From Sphingopyxis sp. OAS728 (GTDB taxonomy: Bacteria > Pseudomonadota > Alphaproteobacteria > Sphingomonadales > Sphingomonadaceae), in assembly GCF_014873485.1 (NCBI RefSeq), contig NZ_JADBDT010000001.1, positions 1,860,001 to 1,924,000 of the forward strand: DNA of 64,000 nucleotides. The letters are read 5' to 3'. Positions 26,375 to 34,821 of this stretch are shown one piece after another (the stretch's first letter is position 1; the number at the start of each line of letters is the position of its first letter). The translations under genes were made by a program, and so were the position numbers. Below the pieces are notes generated by a model. It searched no databases. It worked only from the letters and a program-made list of their open reading frames with translations, and was not told where the DNA came from.

Positions 26375-29300
26375 GTGCGAAAATCGATCGCAATTTTGAT
26401 CTGCATCCTGCTCGCCCTGCTGCCGGGTCGGGCGATGGCGGCGTTCGAGCGGTCGATCCTTCAATATCACCACCGCCACTGGAGCGAAGAAAGCGACGCG
26501 CCGAAACCGGTCTTCGCGGTGAAACAGGGCCAGCGCGGTTACATGTGGGTCGCCTCTGCGAGCGGCCTGTTCCGTTTCGACGGCATCCGATTCGACAATG
26601 TCAGCGACGGCATCGACCTGGTCCAGCACGGTCCGCCATCGGCGATCCTCGTCCGCCGCAACGGCGAAATCTGGACCAATTTCGAACGATCGGGGCGCTT
26701 CGCCGTCTATCGCGGCGGCCGCTTGCGCTTTCTCGACGCGCCGCGGTCGCCCGATCGGGTCCAAGCGATGCACGAGGCCGCCGACGGTACGATCTGGGTC
26801 CTGACCGAGCGAACCGGATTGCCGCTGCTGCGCTATCGCCACGGCAAATGGACGCAATTCGGGGCGAAGGCTGGCGCGCCGGTCGACAATCCCTTCAGCA
26901 TGGTGGTGACGCGCGATGGCACCGTCTGGGTCTCCTTCACCGGATCGGTTGCCCGCTTGCGCGCCGGCGAAACGCATTTCGAGACGGTGCGAAGCAAGCT
27001 GCGCGCGCTCGGCCGCCTGTCGATCGATCCGCAGGAGCGCATCTGGCTGACCGAGATCGACGGCACCTATCCGATCACCGGCGTCGGCGGGCGCGGCGAC
27101 CCGCCGCCGCTGCGCCACGCCTATGCGACCGACGCCGCCGAGATTCGCGGCTGGCCGATGTTCGATCGCGAAGGCAATTTGTGGATATCGACCTATTATG
27201 ACGGGATCCAGCGCGTCGCCCGCCCCGATCCCCGCGGCGCGACGACCCGCGCGGAAGCCATCGCCCGCGTCGAGCATTTCACCGCGCGCGACGGGCTGTC
27301 ATCGAACGCGACCACCGCGATCTGGCAGGATGACGAAGGCAATGTCTGGGCCGGCACCGAAAATGGCATCGACCGCTTCTGGCCGGCGACGCTTCGCTTT
27401 GAATCCGAACTGACCGACCCCGCGGCCTTTGGCGACCTGCTGCTTCAGGCATCGGACGGCGCGGTCTACATCGGTCAGGCGTCGGCCATTTATCGCGTCC
27501 GCCCCGGCGGCCACCCCGAGGTCATTTTCAAAACCCAGGGTGAGCCGAGCACCTTGTGCGAGGCGCCCGACGGCGCAATCTGGATCGGCGTCGGCCGCGA
27601 GGTCGTGATCTGGCGCGACGGCCGGGTGCGGCGGCTGCCTGGGCGCGTTCCGGTGAACCGGACAATCTATGACTGCGCGTTCGATGCGAACGGCGATTAT
27701 TGGGTCACGGCGTCCTTCGGCGGCATGGCGCGCTTCCGGGCGGGCCGCTGGGACCAGCCTTTCGGACCCGCGCGCGGCGACTTTATCCCGAAATCGATGG
27801 TGGCCGACCGCAACGGCCGCATCGCCGTGCAGTGGACCAATCGCATGCTCGGCTGGATCGACGGCGACCGACGTCGCACCGTGCCGATCCCATGGGACGG
27901 CTATGAGCCCGACGATGCGGCATTATATGACGCACCCGACGGCGGCTTGTTCGTCGCCGGCCGTTTCGGCCTCGCGCGCTTTCAGGACGGACGCGTCCAG
28001 ACGATATCGGCGCGCCGCGCGCCCGTGCTCAGCGGCGTCAACGGGATGGTCCAGACGCCCGATGGCGATAGCTGGCTCGCGGGTCCCGCCGGGATCATGC
28101 AGATCCCGTCGAGCCGTCTGGCGGCCGCCCTCGCCAATCCCGGTCCACCACCGGCGTTTCGGGTTTTCGGCGCGCTCGACGGCCTCAGAAGCCTGCCGCA
28201 CGACCATAGCCGCCGCTCGATCGTTCGGGGCGGCGATGGCCGGCTGTGGATCGCGACGCAAACGGGAACGCTCTGGCTCGACCCGAGCGACATCGCGCGT
28301 AACCGCCGGCCGCCGAAGGTCCACGTCAGTGCGCTCTCCGCCGATCGGCTCTACCGCGATCCACAGCGCGTGAAGCTGCCCGCCGGAACGTCGGACATCG
28401 AGATCGACTTCGCGGTGCTCAGCTTCGCCAACCCGCGCGCGACGCGCGTGCGATACCGGATCGAGGGACAGGGCGTCGAATGGGTCGACGCCGGAACGCG
28501 GCGACAGGCCTTTTATACCAACCTTGCCCCCGGAACTTATCGTTTCCACGTTATCGCCGCGAACGACGATGGCGTGTGGAACGAAGCGGGCGCCACGGTC
28601 GCGTTCGAAATCCCGCCGACCTTTGTTCAGTCGCGCTGGTTCCTGCTGCTCTGCGTGGCGGCGGGGGTTCTTCTCCTGTGGGCGATATTGCAATGGCGCT
28701 ATGCCGAAGCAATGCGGCGCATGCGCAGCCGGCTCGAAGAACGCGTCGGCGAACGCGAACGGATCGCCCGTGACCTCCACGACACCTTGCTTCAAGGCGT
28801 GCAGGGCCTTGTGCTGCAATTTCAGGCGATCGCCGACCGTATGCCGGGCAACAACGGTGAACGCGCCGCGCTTCAAAAAGCGCTGACCCTTGCCGACGAC
28901 GTCATCCTCGAAGGACGCGAACGCGTTCAGGCGCTCCGCGGCCATCAGGACGCCACCGATCTGGAGACCGTCGTCCACAATCTCGTCAAGACGCATCCCT
29001 TTTACCCCGCGGTTGAGGTGCGGGTCGCGATAGAGGGCGCGGCGCGCCCCGTCGATCCGCTTGTCGCGTCCGAACTGGCGCTTATCGGTGGCGAGGCGCT
29101 CTTCAATATCGCGCATCACGCCGGTGCGACCGAAGTCGGCATCCTCGTCGACTTTGGGCGCGACGAGCTTTCGATCCGGTTTCGCGACAATGGCGCGGGG
29201 ATCCCCGCCGATATCCTTCGCGAAGGGCGGCGCGAAGGCCATTTCGGGCTGGTTACGATGCGCGAACGCGCCGAGAGGATCGGCGGCAAATTCGCGATCG

Positions 29301-29440
29301 ACAGCGCGCCCGGACAGGGAACGGTCGTGTCCGTCACTTTGGGGGCGAACCTCGCCTATGGCGGCGCGCGGCGCGCAAGCCTCTGGAAGCGCCTGAAGGA
29401 TTATCTTTCCGGCGGCTCAGACCATCCCCGTCTCGATTGA
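26375..29440 (+). CDS. Beta-propeller sensor histidine kinase (two-component regulator propeller, Y_Y_Y, HisKA_3)
   Basis: The 1021-residue protein starts at GTG 26375 after TTGGAGGGG and has a signal/anchor (residues 1 to about 23). The periplasmic part contains many propeller repeats of the W-x-G/A-T-x-x-G-I/L type (WVASASGLFRFDG, WAGTENGIDRFW, WIATQTGTLWLD) up to about 640. A Y_Y_Y immunoglobulin-like domain, one membrane helix (about 765-785), a HisKA_3 domain with H802 in RDLHDTLLQGVQG, and an HATPase domain follow. Such reg_prop kinases sense sugars or other ligands in Bacteroidetes and in some Proteobacteria. There is no fused receiver, so the NarL-type regulator at 23003 is the likely partner. 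Confidence 0.88.
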   Translation: MRKSIAILICILLALLPGRAMAAFERSILQYHHRHWSEESDAPKPVFAVKQGQRGYMWVASASGLFRFDGIRFDNVSDGIDLVQHGPPSAILVRRNGEIWTNFERSGRFAVYRGGRLRFLDAPRSPDRVQAMHEAADGTIWVLTERTGLPLLRYRHGKWTQFGAKAGAPVDNPFSMVVTRDGTVWVSFTGSVARLRAGETHFETVRSKLRALGRLSIDPQERIWLTEIDGTYPITGVGGRGDPPPLRHAYATDAAEIRGWPMFDREGNLWISTYYDGIQRVARPDPRGATTRAEAIARVEHFTARDGLSSNATTAIWQDDEGNVWAGTENGIDRFWPATLRFESELTDPAAFGDLLLQASDGAVYIGQASAIYRVRPGGHPEVIFKTQGEPSTLCEAPDGAIWIGVGREVVIWRDGRVRRLPGRVPVNRTIYDCAFDANGDYWVTASFGGMARFRAGRWDQPFGPARGDFIPKSMVADRNGRIAVQWTNRMLGWIDGDRRRTVPIPWDGYEPDDAALYDAPDGGLFVAGRFGLARFQDGRVQTISARRAPVLSGVNGMVQTPDGDSWLAGPAGIMQIPSSRLAAALANPGPPPAFRVFGALDGLRSLPHDHSRRSIVRGGDGRLWIATQTGTLWLDPSDIARNRRPPKVHVSALSADRLYRDPQRVKLPAGTSDIEIDFAVLSFANPRATRVRYRIEGQGVEWVDAGTRRQAFYTNLAPGTYRFHVIAANDDGVWNEAGATVAFEIPPTFVQSRWFLLLCVAAGVLLLWAILQWRYAEAMRRMRSRLEERVGERERIARDLHDTLLQGVQGLVLQFQAIADRMPGNNGERAALQKALTLADDVILEGRERVQALRGHQDATDLETVVHNLVKTHPFYPAVEVRVAIEGAARPVDPLVASELALIGGEALFNIAHHAGATEVGILVDFGRDELSIRFRDNGAGIPADILREGRREGHFGLVTMRERAERIGGKFAIDSAPGQGTVVSVTLGANLAYGGARRASLWKRLKDYLSGGSDHPRLD

Positions 29441-29450: not shown

Positions 29451-29630
29451 ATCCACCCACAGAGATCATCTGGGTATTTCTCCGCCCCCGACATTGCCAA
29501 TTCGCAAAGCGGGCCATGCCGGTGCGCATCATGATCACCTTGTTCGCACCGATGCGGACGGAGTCGGGGAGGATCCGCATCAGCAATGCCGTTCGGCATC
29601 GCGAGCCATCCCCTTTTTAGGAGAGAAGTC

Positions 29631-30161
29631 ATGATGAAGAAAGTCATGCTGGCGGTGTCGACGCTGGCGCTTGCCGTCACGGCCGCACCTGCGTTCGCGC
29701 AAACTCAAGCCGAGAATGACGCCAACAACAATGGTGCTTCGGGGAACAACAGCGACAATGACACCGTCGTTGTGAACGATCTGATCGACCTGTTCGTTCA
29801 GGACAATGCCGCCGACACCTTCTCGGACGACGATCAGGACAATGACGGCAATGGCTCGTTCAACGGCAACAGCCTCGTTGTCGCGACCCAAACGCTGAGC
29901 GCCACCAACACCAACCAGAATCTCGACGAAGTCGTCGATATGGACGGTGAAGACGGCAGCGAAACGCCCGTCGGCTACAACAGCGGCAACAACTCGGTGC
30001 GCGGCAGCGCCTTTGCGGCCTACGCCGGCATCCTGAACGCCGCCTGGAACACGGGCATCAACGCCAACACCCAGGCCGCGACCAACATCGCTGCGAGCGG
30101 CACTGTCAGCTTCGGCGACAGCGGCAGCAACGGCGGCGCCGGTGGCGGCGGCGGCGACTGA
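29631..30161 (+). CDS. Secreted Asn/Asp/Gly-rich protein, candidate amyloid subunit 1
   Basis: The 176-residue protein has a clear signal peptide (1-23, cleavage after AFA) and an acidic mature part very rich in N, D, G, S and T. Residues 81-90 (SLVVATQTLS) resemble residues 71-80 of the 30245 protein, and NAAWNTG (136-142) aligns with NLLINTG there and NILVNTA in the 31391 protein. The C-terminus is a glycine run. This composition, with N/Q-bearing motifs, recalls curli and Fap subunits. AGGAGA precedes the ATG at 29631 (a second ATG follows directly). A strong hairpin follows the gene. No double-glycine site is obvious. The subunit role is inferred. Confidence 0.6.
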   Translation: MMKKVMLAVSTLALAVTAAPAFAQTQAENDANNNGASGNNSDNDTVVVNDLIDLFVQDNAADTFSDDDQDNDGNGSFNGNSLVVATQTLSATNTNQNLDEVVDMDGEDGSETPVGYNSGNNSVRGSAFAAYAGILNAAWNTGINANTQAATNIAASGTVSFGDSGSNGGAGGGGGD

Positions 30162-30175
30162 TCAAGTCCCCCCGG

Positions 30176-30209
30176 ATGGCCGGCCCGGCTCCACTGACGG
30201 GCCGGCCAT
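30176..30209 (+). other. Perfect 12-bp hairpin between the first and second operon genes
   Basis: ATGGCCGGCCCG (30176-30187) pairs with CGGGCCGGCCAT (30198-30209) around a 10-nt loop. There is no U-run after it. Its place between two co-directional genes 83 bases apart fits mRNA stabilisation or partial termination, which would give more of the first gene product than of the rest. Confidence 0.6.
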
Positions 30210-30244
30210 TTCCCAAAGTTTCGCGTTCAAGGAGCGTCCGTGTC

Positions 30245-30652
30245 ATGAAACCCCCGATCGTCCCGGTCTTGCTGGTCCTGGCGGGCCTGTCCGCGCCCGT
30301 ATCGGCGCAGTTGCCGCCACCCGATCCCGCCGCTCCCCTCGTGGCCGAGGCCACCGCGACCGAAGTTCGCGCAGCCCCGGCCCTTCCGGTGGCGCCCGAA
30401 CGCAAATCGCCGATGCTGAAGGATACCGAGCTCGATACGCTGCGCGGCGGCCAGTCGCTCGTCATCACCAATCAGACGATGGACTCGATCGTCAGCGGCA
30501 ACGTCCTCAATGGCGACTATACGGCGGGATCGGTCACGCTGAGCGACCTCGCGCTGTCCAATTTCAACGGTGTCGGCAATCTGCTGATCAACACCGGCGC
30601 GCAGGTCAGTGCCCAGAGCGGCATGAACCTGACCATCAACCTCGGCGACTGA
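30245..30652 (+). CDS. Secreted small protein with double-glycine site, candidate amyloid subunit 2
   Basis: The 135-residue protein has a signal peptide (1 to about 21), a Pro/Ala-rich linker, then ELDTLRGG at 62-69. That sequence matches the double-glycine leader consensus cut by C39 peptidases (E at -8, L at -7, L at -4, G at -2 and -1). The 66-residue part after it begins QSLVITNQT and contains NLLINTG (112-118) near a C-terminus ending in alternating hydrophobic and Asn/Gly residues (MNLTINLGD). The peptidase gene starts 8 bases downstream. It probably yields a small, beta-prone secreted peptide after cleavage; this is inferred. Confidence 0.6.
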   Translation: MKPPIVPVLLVLAGLSAPVSAQLPPPDPAAPLVAEATATEVRAAPALPVAPERKSPMLKDTELDTLRGGQSLVITNQTMDSIVSGNVLNGDYTAGSVTLSDLALSNFNGVGNLLINTGAQVSAQSGMNLTINLGD

Positions 30653-30659
30653 GCGCACC

Positions 30660-31394
30660 ATGCGGGCCCTGCGCACCTTGATCGCGGGTCTGCTGTGCGC
30701 CGCAGCCGCGGCGCCCGCTGCCGCCGAAGTCCGGCTGACCGGCCCCGAAACGGGCGGCAATTATCAGCTCCAGGTGATGACCTGGTGGGACATCCCCTTC
30801 CGTTCCGTTATTCGCCAACGTTATGATTTCAGCTGCGGCTCAGCCGCGATCGCGACCCTGCTAACCTATCATTATGGCGCACCGACATCGGAGACGATGC
30901 CCTTTCGCGCGATGTGGGAAAAGGGCGACCGCGAGGCGATTCGCAAGGTCGGCTTCTCGATGCTCGACATGAAAACCTACCTCGCCTCGCGCGGCTTTCG
31001 CGCTGAAGGCTTCCGGATCACCGCCGAGCAATTGAAACAGGTGAAGCGTCCGACCATCGTCCTGATGGATCTCAAGGGATTCAAGCATTTCGTCGTCGTC
31101 AAAGGCGTTCGCGGCGACCGCGTGCTGACGGGCGACTCGGTGCTCGGCCTCAACGAATATTCGCTCAGCGACTTCGAAAAACATTGGAACGGCATCGCGC
31201 TTGCGATCGTCGAGGGCGGCACCAAACGGCCCGCGTTCAACCTCGCTGGCGACTGGGGCCCCTGGTCACAGGCGCCGCTCGAAGCAGACGGGTCGCTTCA
31301 CGTCTCGGTCGGCGATCTGACGACCAACCTGCCCCCCCAATATCAGCTGACGCCGCAGATCCTGCTCGATGTGCGCGTCGGCACCGTGAAATGA
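30660..31394 (+). CDS. Periplasmic C39-family cysteine peptidase (FapD-like)
   Basis: The 244-residue protein has a signal peptide (1 to about 22) and a peptidase C39 domain with oxyanion Q53, catalytic C59 (RQRYDFSCGSAA), H143 (FKHFVVV) and D159 (TGDS). It lacks the transporter and ATPase domains of bacteriocin exporters, so it should act in the periplasm as a stand-alone protease. Stand-alone C39 peptidases of this kind occur as FapD in the Pseudomonas functional-amyloid operon. Candidate substrates with an L-x3-R-G-[GT] site are encoded on both sides and in the convergent outer-membrane gene. Its stop overlaps the next gene by ATGA. Confidence 0.8.
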   Translation: MRALRTLIAGLLCAAAAAPAAAEVRLTGPETGGNYQLQVMTWWDIPFRSVIRQRYDFSCGSAAIATLLTYHYGAPTSETMPFRAMWEKGDREAIRKVGFSMLDMKTYLASRGFRAEGFRITAEQLKQVKRPTIVLMDLKGFKHFVVVKGVRGDRVLTGDSVLGLNEYSLSDFEKHWNGIALAIVEGGTKRPAFNLAGDWGPWSQAPLEADGSLHVSVGDLTTNLPPQYQLTPQILLDVRVGTVK

Positions 31395-31969
31395 GGCCGA
31401 CCATGTCCCCCCGCATCCTCCTGCTCGCCTTTGCGCCCATACTCCTCGCGGCGAGTGAGCCGACGGCCGACGATCCGCTCGCGGACGCCGAGACGGTGCC
31501 CGATGAGGTGCTGGCGACACAGCGCGGCGGCTTCGCTTTTCAGGGCATGGTGATCGCGTTCGGTGCAGACATTCGCAGCTTCGTGAACGACGAGCTTGCG
31601 CTGCGCACGATCGTCAGCTGGACCCCGCAGGGATCCTCGATCGAGCGCTTCGTATCGCCGGCGCTGACCGCGGTCGACGCCGCGCAGATTCAAGGCGGCA
31701 TTTTGACAAGCGGCGGCATCACGATGCGCGTCGGCGACGAGCCGGTGTTCCTCGCGAACAATGGCCAGACGGCGCTGATCCAGAACACCGATGCGATCCA
31801 GAATATACTCGTCAACACCGCCAGCAACGTCTCGCTGAACCAACAGGTCGACGCCGTGCTCGATATCAGCGGTTATGAAGGGTTCCGCGATGGACTGGCC
31901 TCCACGCGTATGAGCGACGCGATCGGCGCCGCAATGGGTGCACAGACCCTCAGCGCGCTCGGCAACTGA
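31391..31969 (+). CDS. Secreted protein with double-glycine-like site, candidate amyloid subunit 3
   Basis: The 192-residue protein starts at the ATG overlapping the peptidase stop (another ATG is four codons in). It has a signal peptide ending near LLAA (about 21), then EVLATQRGG (39-47) with L at -7 and GG at -2/-1. The part after it is hydrophobic, with short beta-like segments, and contains NILVNTA (138-144) aligned with the NT motif of the other two secreted proteins. It ends in a small amphipathic helix. It is followed by two hairpins, the second a good terminator, so it closes the operon. Confidence 0.6.
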   Translation: MRPTMSPRILLLAFAPILLAASEPTADDPLADAETVPDEVLATQRGGFAFQGMVIAFGADIRSFVNDELALRTIVSWTPQGSSIERFVSPALTAVDAAQIQGGILTSGGITMRVGDEPVFLANNGQTALIQNTDAIQNILVNTASNVSLNQQVDAVLDISGYEGFRDGLASTRMSDAIGAAMGAQTLSALGN

Positions 31970-31977
31970 ACGACCCC

Positions 31978-32038
31978 CCGTCCCCGTTTCGACGGGGACG
32001 GTCACCTCGCCCCGCCTCTTTTGGCGGGGCTTTTCTTT
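31978..32038 (+). terminator. Tandem hairpins ending the secreted-protein operon
   Basis: The first hairpin, CCGTCCCCGT-TTCG-ACGGGGACGG (31978-32001), has a perfect 10-bp stem and a UUCG-type tetraloop. The second, GCCCCGCC-TCTTTT-GGCGGGGC (32009-32030), is followed by TTTTCTTT and is a canonical intrinsic terminator. They lie between two convergent transcription units. Confidence 0.85.
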
Positions 32039-32080
32039 GCGAGGATGGGCGTTTGCGAGAAGAGGCGGTCGGGAGGGGGG

Positions 32081-33520
32081 TTATAATTTCCCGCCAAACG
32101 GCATGCGCAGCGTGATCGACACGTCGGGCGCATCCTCGGTCACGCCGATTTCGAAGCCCATGTTCAGAACGTCGCGCTCGGTCAGGCGATAGGACATTCC
32201 GAAGTTGAGCGAACCGACGTGGATATAGTTGGATTTCTGCTGCGTATCGCCAATCTCGGTCTTGGTCGGGAAGATGTAATTGTGCCGATATCCCAGCGAG
32301 AAGGAAAAGCGCGGGTTGAGCGCGAAGCCGAAGCCGATATTGGCCGACACTGCATCGCCCGGGTCGACGCGTCCGATCAGCACGTCGCCGACCAATTTGT
32401 TCACGTCGCGCGGGATGTGATAAAGATAGGCTGCTCCGCCGTAAATCACCGCGGGATCCGACGGCATCAGGAAATTGACCCCCGGCTGAACCGCCCAGAA
32501 ACCCGATCCGGTCGCGAGTCCGGTGGCAACGCCGAATTCGTCGTAGCCGATCTCGAACGGCCCTTTGCCCGTGTCCGATTTGACCCGCAGCGTTCCGACG
32601 AAGATCGGCTTTTGACCGACCGGGCGATTGAATTGGTACCGGAGCGAGAATTCGGCGTCGCCGACCCCGTCCTCGCGCAGCGCGATCGACCGGACGATGC
32701 CCTCGTCACGCTGCTGGACAACCTCGATCCGGTCGTTCCGATAAAGATAGGGTATGCGCACTTCGGCTTCGAGCCGGTCGGTAATTCCGTAGCGCATCGA
32801 GGCCGTTCCGACGAGCGTATCACGATCAGCGTCAGTCGCCTCGATCAGGCCAATCTGGATCCCCGGGATCAGTTCGATCCCGCGAAAGACGAGGCGGTTG
32901 GTCGACGAGCGCGTATATTCGAGCGAGGGTTCGAAAATGAGGTGGCCGGCGCGGGTCAACACGCCCTGTCCTTCGGGAACCGCCGCGACGCGTTCGGCGG
33001 TCGACTCGGTCGGTGGCGGGGCTTCGCCCACGGGCGCATCGGGCAAGGCGACCGCGTCGCTGCCCGGGCCGGGAAGCGCAGGGCCGGCAACGCCTTGTCC
33101 CCCCATGCCGGTGCCGCGGAACATCTCCAGCGGCGCCTCTGCGAGCGCGAAGGACGAGAGCCGGTCGATCTGCGCCTGCTGCGTGATAAGCTGCCCCTGC
33201 ATCTTCACAATCTGCTGCCGCTGCTCCACCAGCATCGCATTTTGCTGGTCGATCAGCGCGCGCTGTTCGGCCAGGATTCGCCGCTGCGCATCGATCTCGC
33301 TCTCGACGCTCGCCGCCGGCGGGCTTTCGGCCGCAGCGCCCGCACCCGCGGCCGCGGCATTCCATGTCGGCGCAGTGTCGAGGAATGGCAGTGCGTCGCA
33401 CAGGCATTCAAGCGCTGGCGTCTCGTGCGCCTTGGCCTGCGAAGGCGAAAAAACCGCGGACAGCCCGACGGCCGCCACGCCGACATGGCGCAGCACGGGC
33501 GGCGCTATCAAGTTGCTCAT
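32081..33520 (-). CDS. Outer-membrane protein with coiled coil before a beta-barrel (FapF-like)
   Basis: The 479-residue protein has a signal peptide (1 to about 31). A Gln-rich coiled coil follows at about 72-125 (repeats such as LAEQRALIDQQ and LITQQAQIDRL). A Pro/Gly-rich linker contains LEMFRGTG (131-138), and a C-terminal region (about 190-479) has long alternating strands like a barrel. The Pseudomonas Fap exporter FapF has the same order: an N-terminal coiled coil that gates a barrel. The linker motif resembles the L-x3-R-G-G sites of the secreted proteins, so the same C39 peptidase may cut here. The start overlaps the regulator stop (ATGA). I see only fold-level resemblance, not clear sequence identity. 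Confidence 0.65.
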   Translation of the reverse strand: MSNLIAPPVLRHVGVAAVGLSAVFSPSQAKAHETPALECLCDALPFLDTAPTWNAAAAGAGAAAESPPAASVESEIDAQRRILAEQRALIDQQNAMLVEQRQQIVKMQGQLITQQAQIDRLSSFALAEAPLEMFRGTGMGGQGVAGPALPGPGSDAVALPDAPVGEAPPPTESTAERVAAVPEGQGVLTRAGHLIFEPSLEYTRSSTNRLVFRGIELIPGIQIGLIEATDADRDTLVGTASMRYGITDRLEAEVRIPYLYRNDRIEVVQQRDEGIVRSIALREDGVGDAEFSLRYQFNRPVGQKPIFVGTLRVKSDTGKGPFEIGYDEFGVATGLATGSGFWAVQPGVNFLMPSDPAVIYGGAAYLYHIPRDVNKLVGDVLIGRVDPGDAVSANIGFGFALNPRFSFSLGYRHNYIFPTKTEIGDTQQKSNYIHVGSLNFGMSYRLTERDVLNMGFEIGVTEDAPDVSITLRMPFGGKL

Positions 33521-34197
33521 GCACCCGCCCCCTGCCCGGTAAAGCCTCGCCGCGACCGCATCGCGCCCATCTTGTCGATCGCCACGCCCATCTCTTCGCC
33601 GGCGATCGCGCGAAGCCCGTCGAGGTCGACCAGCCGGCACAATTGCGGCCCCTCCAGCTCGATCAGCCCTTGGCGGACAAAGCCCGAGATCGTCCGGCTG
33701 ACCGTATGGATCGTGAGGCCCAGATGATCGGCAATATCGCCGCGCGTCATCGGCAGGGGGATGCTGCCAAGTGCCGACAGCCGCTTCGCTGCGATCAGCA
33801 GAAATGCTGCGACACGTTCGTTGGCGTTCCGCCGGCCGAGCAGGAATATGCACTGATTCGCGCTGTCTAGCGCCCGTTCGAGCGCGCGATTCTGTCCAAA
33901 CGAATCGGGGTCGCCGTTCAGTGCCGGACGGCGCGTCAGGATCGTGTTGGTAACCGCTTCGGCGGCGGCATCGCGCGAGCCATATTCGACGCCGAACACG
34001 TCGCCCTGATAGAAGAATCCCGTCAACTGGCGGTGACCGTCAACGTGGAAATGGCATGTTCTCACCGTGCCCGAGATGACCTCGAACCAGCAATCGCCCG
34101 GATCACCCTGCGAAAAGATGATCTCGCCCTTACGAAATTTTAGAATCGTATCCTGCGGAATCGAACCGCGTTGAAACTCTGCCGAAAGCCCTTGCAC
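33517..34197 (-). CDS. Crp/FNR-family transcription regulator
   Basis: The 226-residue protein has a cyclic-nucleotide-binding-like beta domain (about 20-130) and a C-terminal winged helix with DIADHLGLTIHTVSRTIS as recognition region. The N-terminal cysteine cluster of oxygen-sensing FNR is absent, so it resembles FixK-type members. It begins with GTG at 34197, and its stop overlaps the start of the FapF-like gene. Translational coupling of a regulator to the exporter gene suggests it controls this secretion cluster, possibly both arms. Confidence 0.85.
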   Translation of the reverse strand: MQGLSAEFQRGSIPQDTILKFRKGEIIFSQGDPGDCWFEVISGTVRTCHFHVDGHRQLTGFFYQGDVFGVEYGSRDAAAEAVTNTILTRRPALNGDPDSFGQNRALERALDSANQCIFLLGRRNANERVAAFLLIAAKRLSALGSIPLPMTRGDIADHLGLTIHTVSRTISGFVRQGLIELEGPQLCRLVDLDGLRAIAGEEMGVAIDKMGAMRSRRGFTGQGAGA

Positions 34198-34476: not shown

Positions 34477-34821
34477 GTGGGTTGCGGCATTGCCGCGCAA
34501 AAGATGCTCGTCGGTCGCAAAGTGTCTACGCCTTGGGTGTCAGGGGATTGCACCGTGCATCGAAACGCTTTGAACGTCGAACCGCATTTGACCTTTCGTG
34601 AGCATCAAATATTGGAATTGGTAGCAGTGGGCTGCTCGGCCAAGCAGATTGCGCTCGAAATCAATATCGCTCCACGAACCGTCGAACGGCATATCGAGAA
34701 TGTGCGGCTAAAGCTCAATGCGCGAAACCGCGCGCATCTGATCACCCAGGCCATGCACCTCGGCCTGTTGGTCATCGAAACGCCGCCACCGGACGAACCG
34801 ACACTCTTCGAACTCAAATGA
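34477..34821 (+). CDS. Stand-alone LuxR-type HTH regulator
   Basis: The product, up to 114 residues, consists essentially of a LuxR/GerE helix-turn-helix (LTFREHQILELVAVGCSAKQ to VERHIENVRLKLNARNRAHLI, about residues 38-90) with no receiver or ligand domain. The start is uncertain: GTG 34477, ATG 34504 and GTG 34555 are all in frame. It lies divergent from the Crp/FNR gene of the secretion cluster. Its target is unknown. Confidence 0.7.
   Translation: MGCGIAAQKMLVGRKVSTPWVSGDCTVHRNALNVEPHLTFREHQILELVAVGCSAKQIALEINIAPRTVERHIENVRLKLNARNRAHLITQAMHLGLLVIETPPPDEPTLFELK

Follow-up and report, generated by a model that had tools for sequence, protein, structure and literature searches.

Which secretion system is encoded by a six-gene cluster of the alphaproteobacterium Sphingopyxis sp. 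OAS728 that sets small signal-peptide proteins beside a periplasmic C39 peptidase and an outer-membrane barrel, a combination reminiscent of the Fap functional-amyloid system (fapABCDEF) of Pseudomonas? The genes, here called g1 to g6 (Table 1), lie in a window of 64,000 nucleotides (contig NZ_JADBDT010000001.1, positions 1,860,001 to 1,924,000), which is the whole stretch of DNA analysed and whose numbering is used throughout. A preliminary description had read the cluster as a reduced, divergent counterpart of Fap; the homology to FapD and FapF holds, but the cluster is not canonical Fap, as none of FapA, FapB, FapC and FapE is matched and the peptidase falls in a separate clade. Here, we describe the evidence on which the cluster is best read as a sister lineage of Fap, widespread in Proteobacteria, together with a double-glycine motif that the preliminary description had not noted in g2 and g4, nor in its RGT variant in g5.

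Homologues of FapD and FapF in a separate C39 clade

It is the peptidase and the barrel protein that tie the cluster to Fap. The peptidase g3 matches the Pfam C39 family (E 1.1e-16) and the NCBIfam FapD model (E 1.1e-46), the latter with 159 bits against a cut-off of 330, and by these profile scores is a homologue of FapD, not an equivalog. It had been described as a stand-alone periplasmic C39 enzyme with intact C59, H143 and D159, and these residues, along with Q53, prove invariant in 19 aligned C39 proteins, as befits a FapD-type peptidase with an intact active site. Likewise g5, described as an outer-membrane protein with a coiled coil before a barrel, is judged a FapF homologue from its match to the NCBIfam FapF model, although this stays below the cut-off; AlphaFold2 models residues 71-126 as a long helix (block pLDDT 84-97) and places a barrel from residue 193 on, with a linker of low confidence between them, which is the build of a FapF-type exporter with coiled coil and 12-stranded barrel. 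The Acinetobacter Fil system (NCBIfam FilB and FilC, 'putative pilus system') similarly pairs a C39 protein with a barrel, but the matches (g3 to FilB, E 3.1e-28; g5 to FilC, E 6.3e-17) fall short both of their cut-offs and of the matches to FapD and FapF.

The phylogeny of the peptidase separates the cluster from canonical Fap. A FastTree analysis covered 139 C39 proteins, with one small three-gene system as the root; in it, 15 canonical loci group together (support 0.90) apart from a group of 115 loci that includes the window (support 0.94), placing g3 outside the canonical clade. Two sites close to the active site distinguish the clades, namely Tyr/Phe versus mostly Thr four residues before Cys59 and Ser versus Ala two residues after it. 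Both cluster types occur in one alphaproteobacterial genome, G182 (loci L081 and L085), and the two therefore probably do different jobs. The root itself comes from a set of alphaproteobacterial mini-systems (L050 and L092-L098) made up of a short secreted protein, a short C39 protein and a short coiled-coil FapF-like barrel; in some of these the secreted protein has a leader-like motif, for example LSDTQMDSVVGG in L094. The idea that g3 is the only C39 protein of the genome was wrong, as two more C39 domains lie elsewhere, in frames of 741 and 789 aa.

The gene neighbourhood is conserved among relatives. An open reading frame check of the window recovered all six genes, with g1 to g4 on the forward strand and g5 and g6 on the reverse strand, the two groups converging on a terminator-like hairpin; the g4 ATG overlaps the g3 stop (ATGA) and the g6 stop overlaps the g5 start. 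A C39 match came up in 12 of the 35 further genomes of the genus that were searched; one (G015, 42% identity) is of the canonical Fap type and the remaining 11 are at 80-93% identity. In 10 of the 11 the loci were fetched, and gene order and orientation of g1 to g6 are identical in all 10, with pairwise dN/dS of 0.02-0.39 across the six genes (eight congener comparisons each). The genes are under purifying selection, and this synteny and low dN/dS make the cluster more than a chance assembly. The nearest named relatives are Sphingopyxis, the C39 protein of L151 being 95% identical.

Farther afield, fetched subsets were taken at successive steps (20 of 30 loci, then two further fetches of 20 places each). 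The species collection yielded at least 592 loci; in the best 80 of them, all named, the C39 gene has a FapF-like protein beside it in 73 cases, a g4-like protein in 79, a g2-like protein in 75 and all of these in 69. The 80 loci include relatives of Sphingopyxis, Novosphingobium, Caulobacter, Brevundimonas, Massilia and Cupriavidus, as well as of Paraburkholderia, Marinobacter, Thioalkalivibrio, Acidithiobacillus and Geobacter. Across 116 clade loci, which contain at least four duplicate pairs (two copies of one genome), a g2-family gene lies upstream of the C39 gene on the same strand in 108, 107 keep the full order g2-C39-g4 on a single strand, and 108 have FapF, for the most part (70) in convergent orientation. 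Of 289 sampled Alphaproteobacteria, three were found to have a canonical cluster and eight, not counting the source of the window, to have one of the window's type. Excerpts of the published record place Fap in Beta-, Gamma- and Deltaproteobacteria (PMC3792158) and fapD with fapF in five further phyla (PMC6173800), and more than 90% of 1602 clusters found through FapB/C repeats were canonical (PMC12822426); published screens, which require these repeats (PMC12392863, PMC12822426), would probably miss the second clade.

The small secreted proteins do not share this homology. Three signal-peptide proteins, Asn/Gly-rich or beta-prone, had been described, and the genes and their composition are borne out (the mature part of g1 has 16% Asn, 14.5% Gly and 12% Asp), but their identity as Fap subunits finds no support in hidden Markov model (HMM) or profile comparison. 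The NCBIfam models of FapA, FapB, FapC and FapE match none of g1, g2 and g4 at E<=1, although models exist for all six Fap proteins and those of FapA to FapE all find their targets in the Pseudomonas-like locus L131; neither the three imperfect repeats of FapB and FapC nor a FapE equivalog is found. One related repeat each had been suspected by eye in g1 and g2, yet an HMM of 29 FapB/C repeats misses both at E<1; it matched only an intermediate, L208 (E 3.4e-4), and nothing in shuffled or reversed controls. Profile-against-profile comparison, as first suggested, gave low probabilities against FapB/C (10-20% for g2, 0.2-9% for g1). g1, g2 and g4 do have C-terminal Asn-rich patterns in common (hhalign probability 89.5% for g2-g1 and 81% for g2-g4). 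A search of the g4 fold with Foldseek returned no match at E<=0.001.

A double-glycine leader behind the Sec signal

What g2 and g4 share, and g1 does not, is a motif of the shape hydrophobic-x-D-x-E-L-x-x-x-R-G-G standing behind the Sec signal. Briefly, a double-glycine leader is hydrophobic at positions -12 and -7, frequently has Glu at -8, and has Gly at -2, and a helix in the leader region is expected of substrates of C39 peptidases. In the AlphaFold2 model of g4 (pLDDT 85.7) a helix spans the leader (residues 8-14 of the modelled piece), and g2, g4 and their relatives combine hydrophobic -12 and -7 positions and Gly-Gly at -2/-1 with an adjoining C39 gene. In ten Sphingopyxis-type g2 sequences, identity is 0.61 in the linker, 0.86 in the motif and 0.95 in the mature part.

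The motif is kept across the clade. RGG ends it in 111 of 115 g4 relatives (72 of 76 after dereplication), with a hydrophobic residue at -7 in all 115 and at -12 in 114, while among 108 g2 relatives 103 have G at -2, 106 are hydrophobic at -7 and 102 at -12, 59 read RGG and 32 carry R or K at -1; these counts leave out 10 g4 rows and 18 g2 rows gapped at the motif column, and two g2 rows removed by hand as g1-like. The window-type clade includes four loci in which the -1 residue is not Gly or was unread. Because the rows had been picked with the motif in the profile, the search was repeated with the mature part alone, and the strict motif was then found upstream in 64 of 74 g4 matches, against 0.30 expected from shuffles, and in 55 of 134 g2 matches, which include motif-less g1-type proteins, against 0.27 expected. 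A wider pattern was given no weight, since chance alone would yield 18 and 24 occurrences. As background, the strict motif occurs 20 times among 3014 other signal-peptide-like open reading frames of the same loci, picked by a crude pattern and including non-genes; these 20 include 11 FapF-family members, three 'LWDE' proteins and a single g4-like one.

The 'LWDE' proteins (in L135, L139, L150, L176, L186 and L208) are small and secreted, and in them a V-x-LWDE stretch comes after a motif that ends in RGG, RGR or TGR. They lie near both canonical and non-canonical clusters, match none of the families compared and may be further substrates of the protease.

The same motif recurs in canonical Fap. 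When 398 Proteobacteria genomes were searched, every one of the 20 best FapF loci proved to have it in FapE; 18 copies end in RG[RK], one in HGK and one in TGK, and all 20 motif proteins are named FapE by NCBIfam, seven above cut-off. Compared with canonical FapE, the g4 profile reaches 96.3% probability over 34 columns with the motif and 0.5% in a reversed control; once the motif is removed, the two do not align. Overall homology between g4 and FapE was considered and rejected, the mature parts reaching 10% and 1% probability and the motif region alone being significant; the NCBIfam FapE model matches one of 76 g4-family members (E 0.0022). A loosely iterated g4 profile (E 1e-4) did reach canonical FapE but was not used as proof, because such iteration in a small set can drift. 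By position and motif, g4 would be the counterpart of FapE.

This bears on a long-standing question about FapD, without which Fap amyloid is not secreted. A 2017 paper, as excerpted, calls the FapD target unclear and the Fap proteins devoid of canonical C39 sequences (PMC5557850), and the target is still 'unclear', or one that FapD 'is thought' to process, in excerpts of papers from 2017 to December 2025 (PMC5557850, PMC6173800, PMC12822426). FapE and FapF are already proposed in print as targets; the wording of December 2025 is that FapD 'is thought to process' them (PMC12822426). The active-site Cys mutant FapD C38A abolishes FapC secretion, and FapE, the sole Fap protein seen fully processed at its N-terminus in the excerpted account, contains GG and GA motifs and comes out about 70 residues shorter at that end (PMC5557850). 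Neither the second clade nor the conserved leader and its GG form was found in the openly licensed PMC papers searched, and the same holds for g2 as an additional target. A stretch similar to the motif also occurs in canonical FapA (L131-L134, L136, L137 and L141), for example LSDSDFAGVTSG and, in L134, LGDADFARVSGG; it might be a decoy or docking site, as published mass spectrometry has FapA uncut.

A variant of the motif stands after the coiled coil of g5. Its equivalent is found in FapF of all ten fetched congener loci, ending RGT in eight and RGA in two, and in 49 of 109 FapF-family proteins outside the canonical group (1.3 expected), as against one of 15 canonical proteins. Accepted endings were RG or KG followed by G, T, A, K, R or S, and GVLTP matches were excluded from the real count and kept in the shuffles. 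A double-glycine motif in FapF has been noted before (PMC5135000), and the variant would fit the published idea that FapF is possibly cut by FapD, closing the pore (PMC5557850, excerpt).

Regulators and neighbouring features

The Crp/FNR-type regulator g6, first described as coupled to the cluster, overlaps g5 and is retained in the congeners, and regulators of this type occur in 25 fetched loci besides the window. An FNR/FixK box, TTGATNNNNATCAA, with one mismatch, 194 bases upstream of g1, was rejected, as, of 11 upstream regions compared, the window's own alone contains it and such boxes are at chance level within the window (two found, 0.80 expected). A small LuxR-type protein next to g6 is a possible regulator of the cluster. 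Signal peptides were assigned by eye and a crude pattern, and the hairpin between g4 and g5 belongs to a class whose hit count in the region is no higher than in shuffles.

The roughly 150 non-coding bases before g1 (29470-29630) are strongly conserved in at least nine of the ten congener loci, with a possible hairpin near the end; no Rfam family was reported there, the Rfam scan giving weak matches only, all under the gathering score. Farther upstream (26375-29440) lies a two-component sensor with Reg_prop propeller, Y_Y_Y and histidine kinase domains, which precedes g1 in only two of the ten congener loci.

Table 1. Features of the cluster, in window coordinates
Feature	Position	Strand	Remarks
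g1, 176 aa secreted Asn/Asp/Gly-rich protein	29631..30161	+	candidate fibre subunit
g2, 135 aa; mature part of 66 aa, conserved and Asn-containing, behind Sec signal, variable linker and double-glycine leader	30245..30652	+	
g2 leader motif LKDTELDTLRGG	30416..30451	+	residues 58-69
g3, 244 aa periplasmic C39 cysteine peptidase, FapD homologue	30660..31394	+	Q53, C59, H143, D159
g4, 192 aa; beta-rich mature part behind Sec-type N-terminus and double-glycine leader	31391..31969	+	
g4 leader motif VPDEVLATQRGG	31496..31531	+	residues 36-47
Terminator-like hairpin between convergent g4 and g5	32009..32030	+	8 G-C pairs, then T-rich tail
g5, 479 aa outer-membrane protein; long coiled-coil helix, linker, FapF-type barrel	32081..33520	-	
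Leader-like motif after g5 coiled coil, LAEAPLEMFRGT (RGT ending)	33110..33145	-	residues 126-137
g6, Crp/FNR-type regulator (FixK-like)	33517..34197	-	overlaps g5 start; in 10/10 congener loci
Small LuxR-type regulator (HTH only)	34477-34821		adjoins g6 in 10/10 congener loci

A putative export route and its alternatives

We consider it likely that the cluster serves Fap-type export in a second lineage, with the periplasmic C39 peptidase trimming Sec-exported g2 and g4 at the motif before their release through g5. In such a scheme g1, g2, g4 and the protease g3 would reach the periplasm via Sec, with g2 and g4 keeping, behind the Sec signal, another leader like those of class II bacteriocins; cutting would be periplasmic because the leader stands behind that signal. 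g3 would recognise the leader helix, with its hydrophobic -12 and -7 positions and acidic residues between them, and cut at Gly-Gly, whereupon trimmed g2 and g4 would exit together with the untrimmed Asn-rich g1, the trimeric coiled-coil barrel g5 serving as their channel, and a surface fibre would be the most likely product of their assembly. For canonical Fap, the scheme would make FapE the substrate of FapD, singled out by this motif in its form with Arg or Lys at -1. The variant that follows the coiled coil of g5 may give the protease a means of gating or resetting the pore.

Several observations weigh against this scheme. While the cluster itself is real, conserved and widespread, we infer from sequence that the motif is cut, at which bond and in what order of events, and that a fibre forms, and it is on cleavage, fibre and bond that the main doubts fall. 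Arg or Lys at -1, as in canonical FapE and the 32 g2 relatives counted above, is unusual for C39 enzymes and so leaves the scissile bond uncertain. The strict motif is missing upstream in 10 of the 74 g4-type matches and the FapF variant from the other non-canonical proteins beyond the 49, the mature parts of g1, g2 and g4 lack significant homology to FapB, FapC and FapE, and the g4 model is that of a folded beta protein and not obviously that of an amyloid. Moreover, the tryptic loss of about 70 residues reported for FapE (PMC5557850, excerpt) exceeds the motif position, at about residue 41 of the L131 precursor.

The motif might instead be left uncut, as a docking element for FapF or for a protease acting as a chaperone, an idea that draws on C39-like domains that merely bind substrate (PMC5557850, excerpt) and on the tolerance of Gly, Arg, Lys, Thr and Ala at -1. 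We hold this to be improbable, although it is the least improbable of the alternatives: the catalytic residues of g3 are invariant, and, in the same excerpts, FapD C38A loses secretion and the FapE N-terminus is missing in mass spectrometry. A canonical Fap operon without fapA and with shortened subunits, as the preliminary description had it, is very unlikely. The cluster resembles Pseudomonas Fap in its homologous FapD and FapF, in an E-like protein after the protease that has the leader motif of FapE, and in a gene order that partly matches (subunit, protease, E-like protein, barrel). Against this stand the unmatched FapA, FapB, FapC and FapE models, which work on L131, the scores of g3 and g5 under the FapD and FapF cut-offs, and the split C39 tree, with G182 holding one cluster of each type; the window cluster also differs in a motif ending RGG rather than mostly RG[RK], in a second motif protein (g2) before the protease, and in a g5 that lacks the FF pair in the plug region and a plug helix in its model.

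Slightly less probable still is a bacteriocin or microcin system with g2 and g4 as toxic or signalling peptides, to which the leader and the C39 family would point, together with a weak NCBIfam match of g2 residues 53-70 to a bacteriocin-like peptide family (E 0.098, below cut-off). Class II bacteriocins and microcins exported by C39 ABC transporters (PCAT1, ComA) do share the C39 fold and the leader pattern, but g3 has its own Sec signal and no ABC transporter, the cluster holds neither an ABC exporter nor an immunity gene, and the leader of g2 and g4 is preceded by a Sec signal. Furthermore, the mature parts (66 and 145 aa) are conserved and beta-rich, their partner is a FapF-type pore, and the other C39 domains of the genome, in frames of a length typical of ABC exporters, lie elsewhere. 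That g5 is a COG4313-type uptake channel (Pfam Phenol_MetA_deg) with unrelated neighbours is scarcely credible, and g5 does not reach the gathering score of PF13557.

Returning to leader-guided Fap-type export, we give an even chance to a more general route, in which tandem Sec and double-glycine leaders are read in turn and a free periplasmic C39 protease, by cutting the second, licenses release through a FapF-type pore; its code would be used by FapE (G[RK]), by g2 and g4 (GG), by the 'LWDE' proteins and by FapF as a self-gating switch. The FapD question becomes testable because the second clade has canonical C39 sequences and canonical FapE has a matching motif, turning an open question about its target into a named candidate bond that a single cleavage assay could address. 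Fap-type export would thereby extend to a clade beyond canonical Fap and, if the route holds, Fap amyloid would be one branch of a wider secretion family of Proteobacteria.

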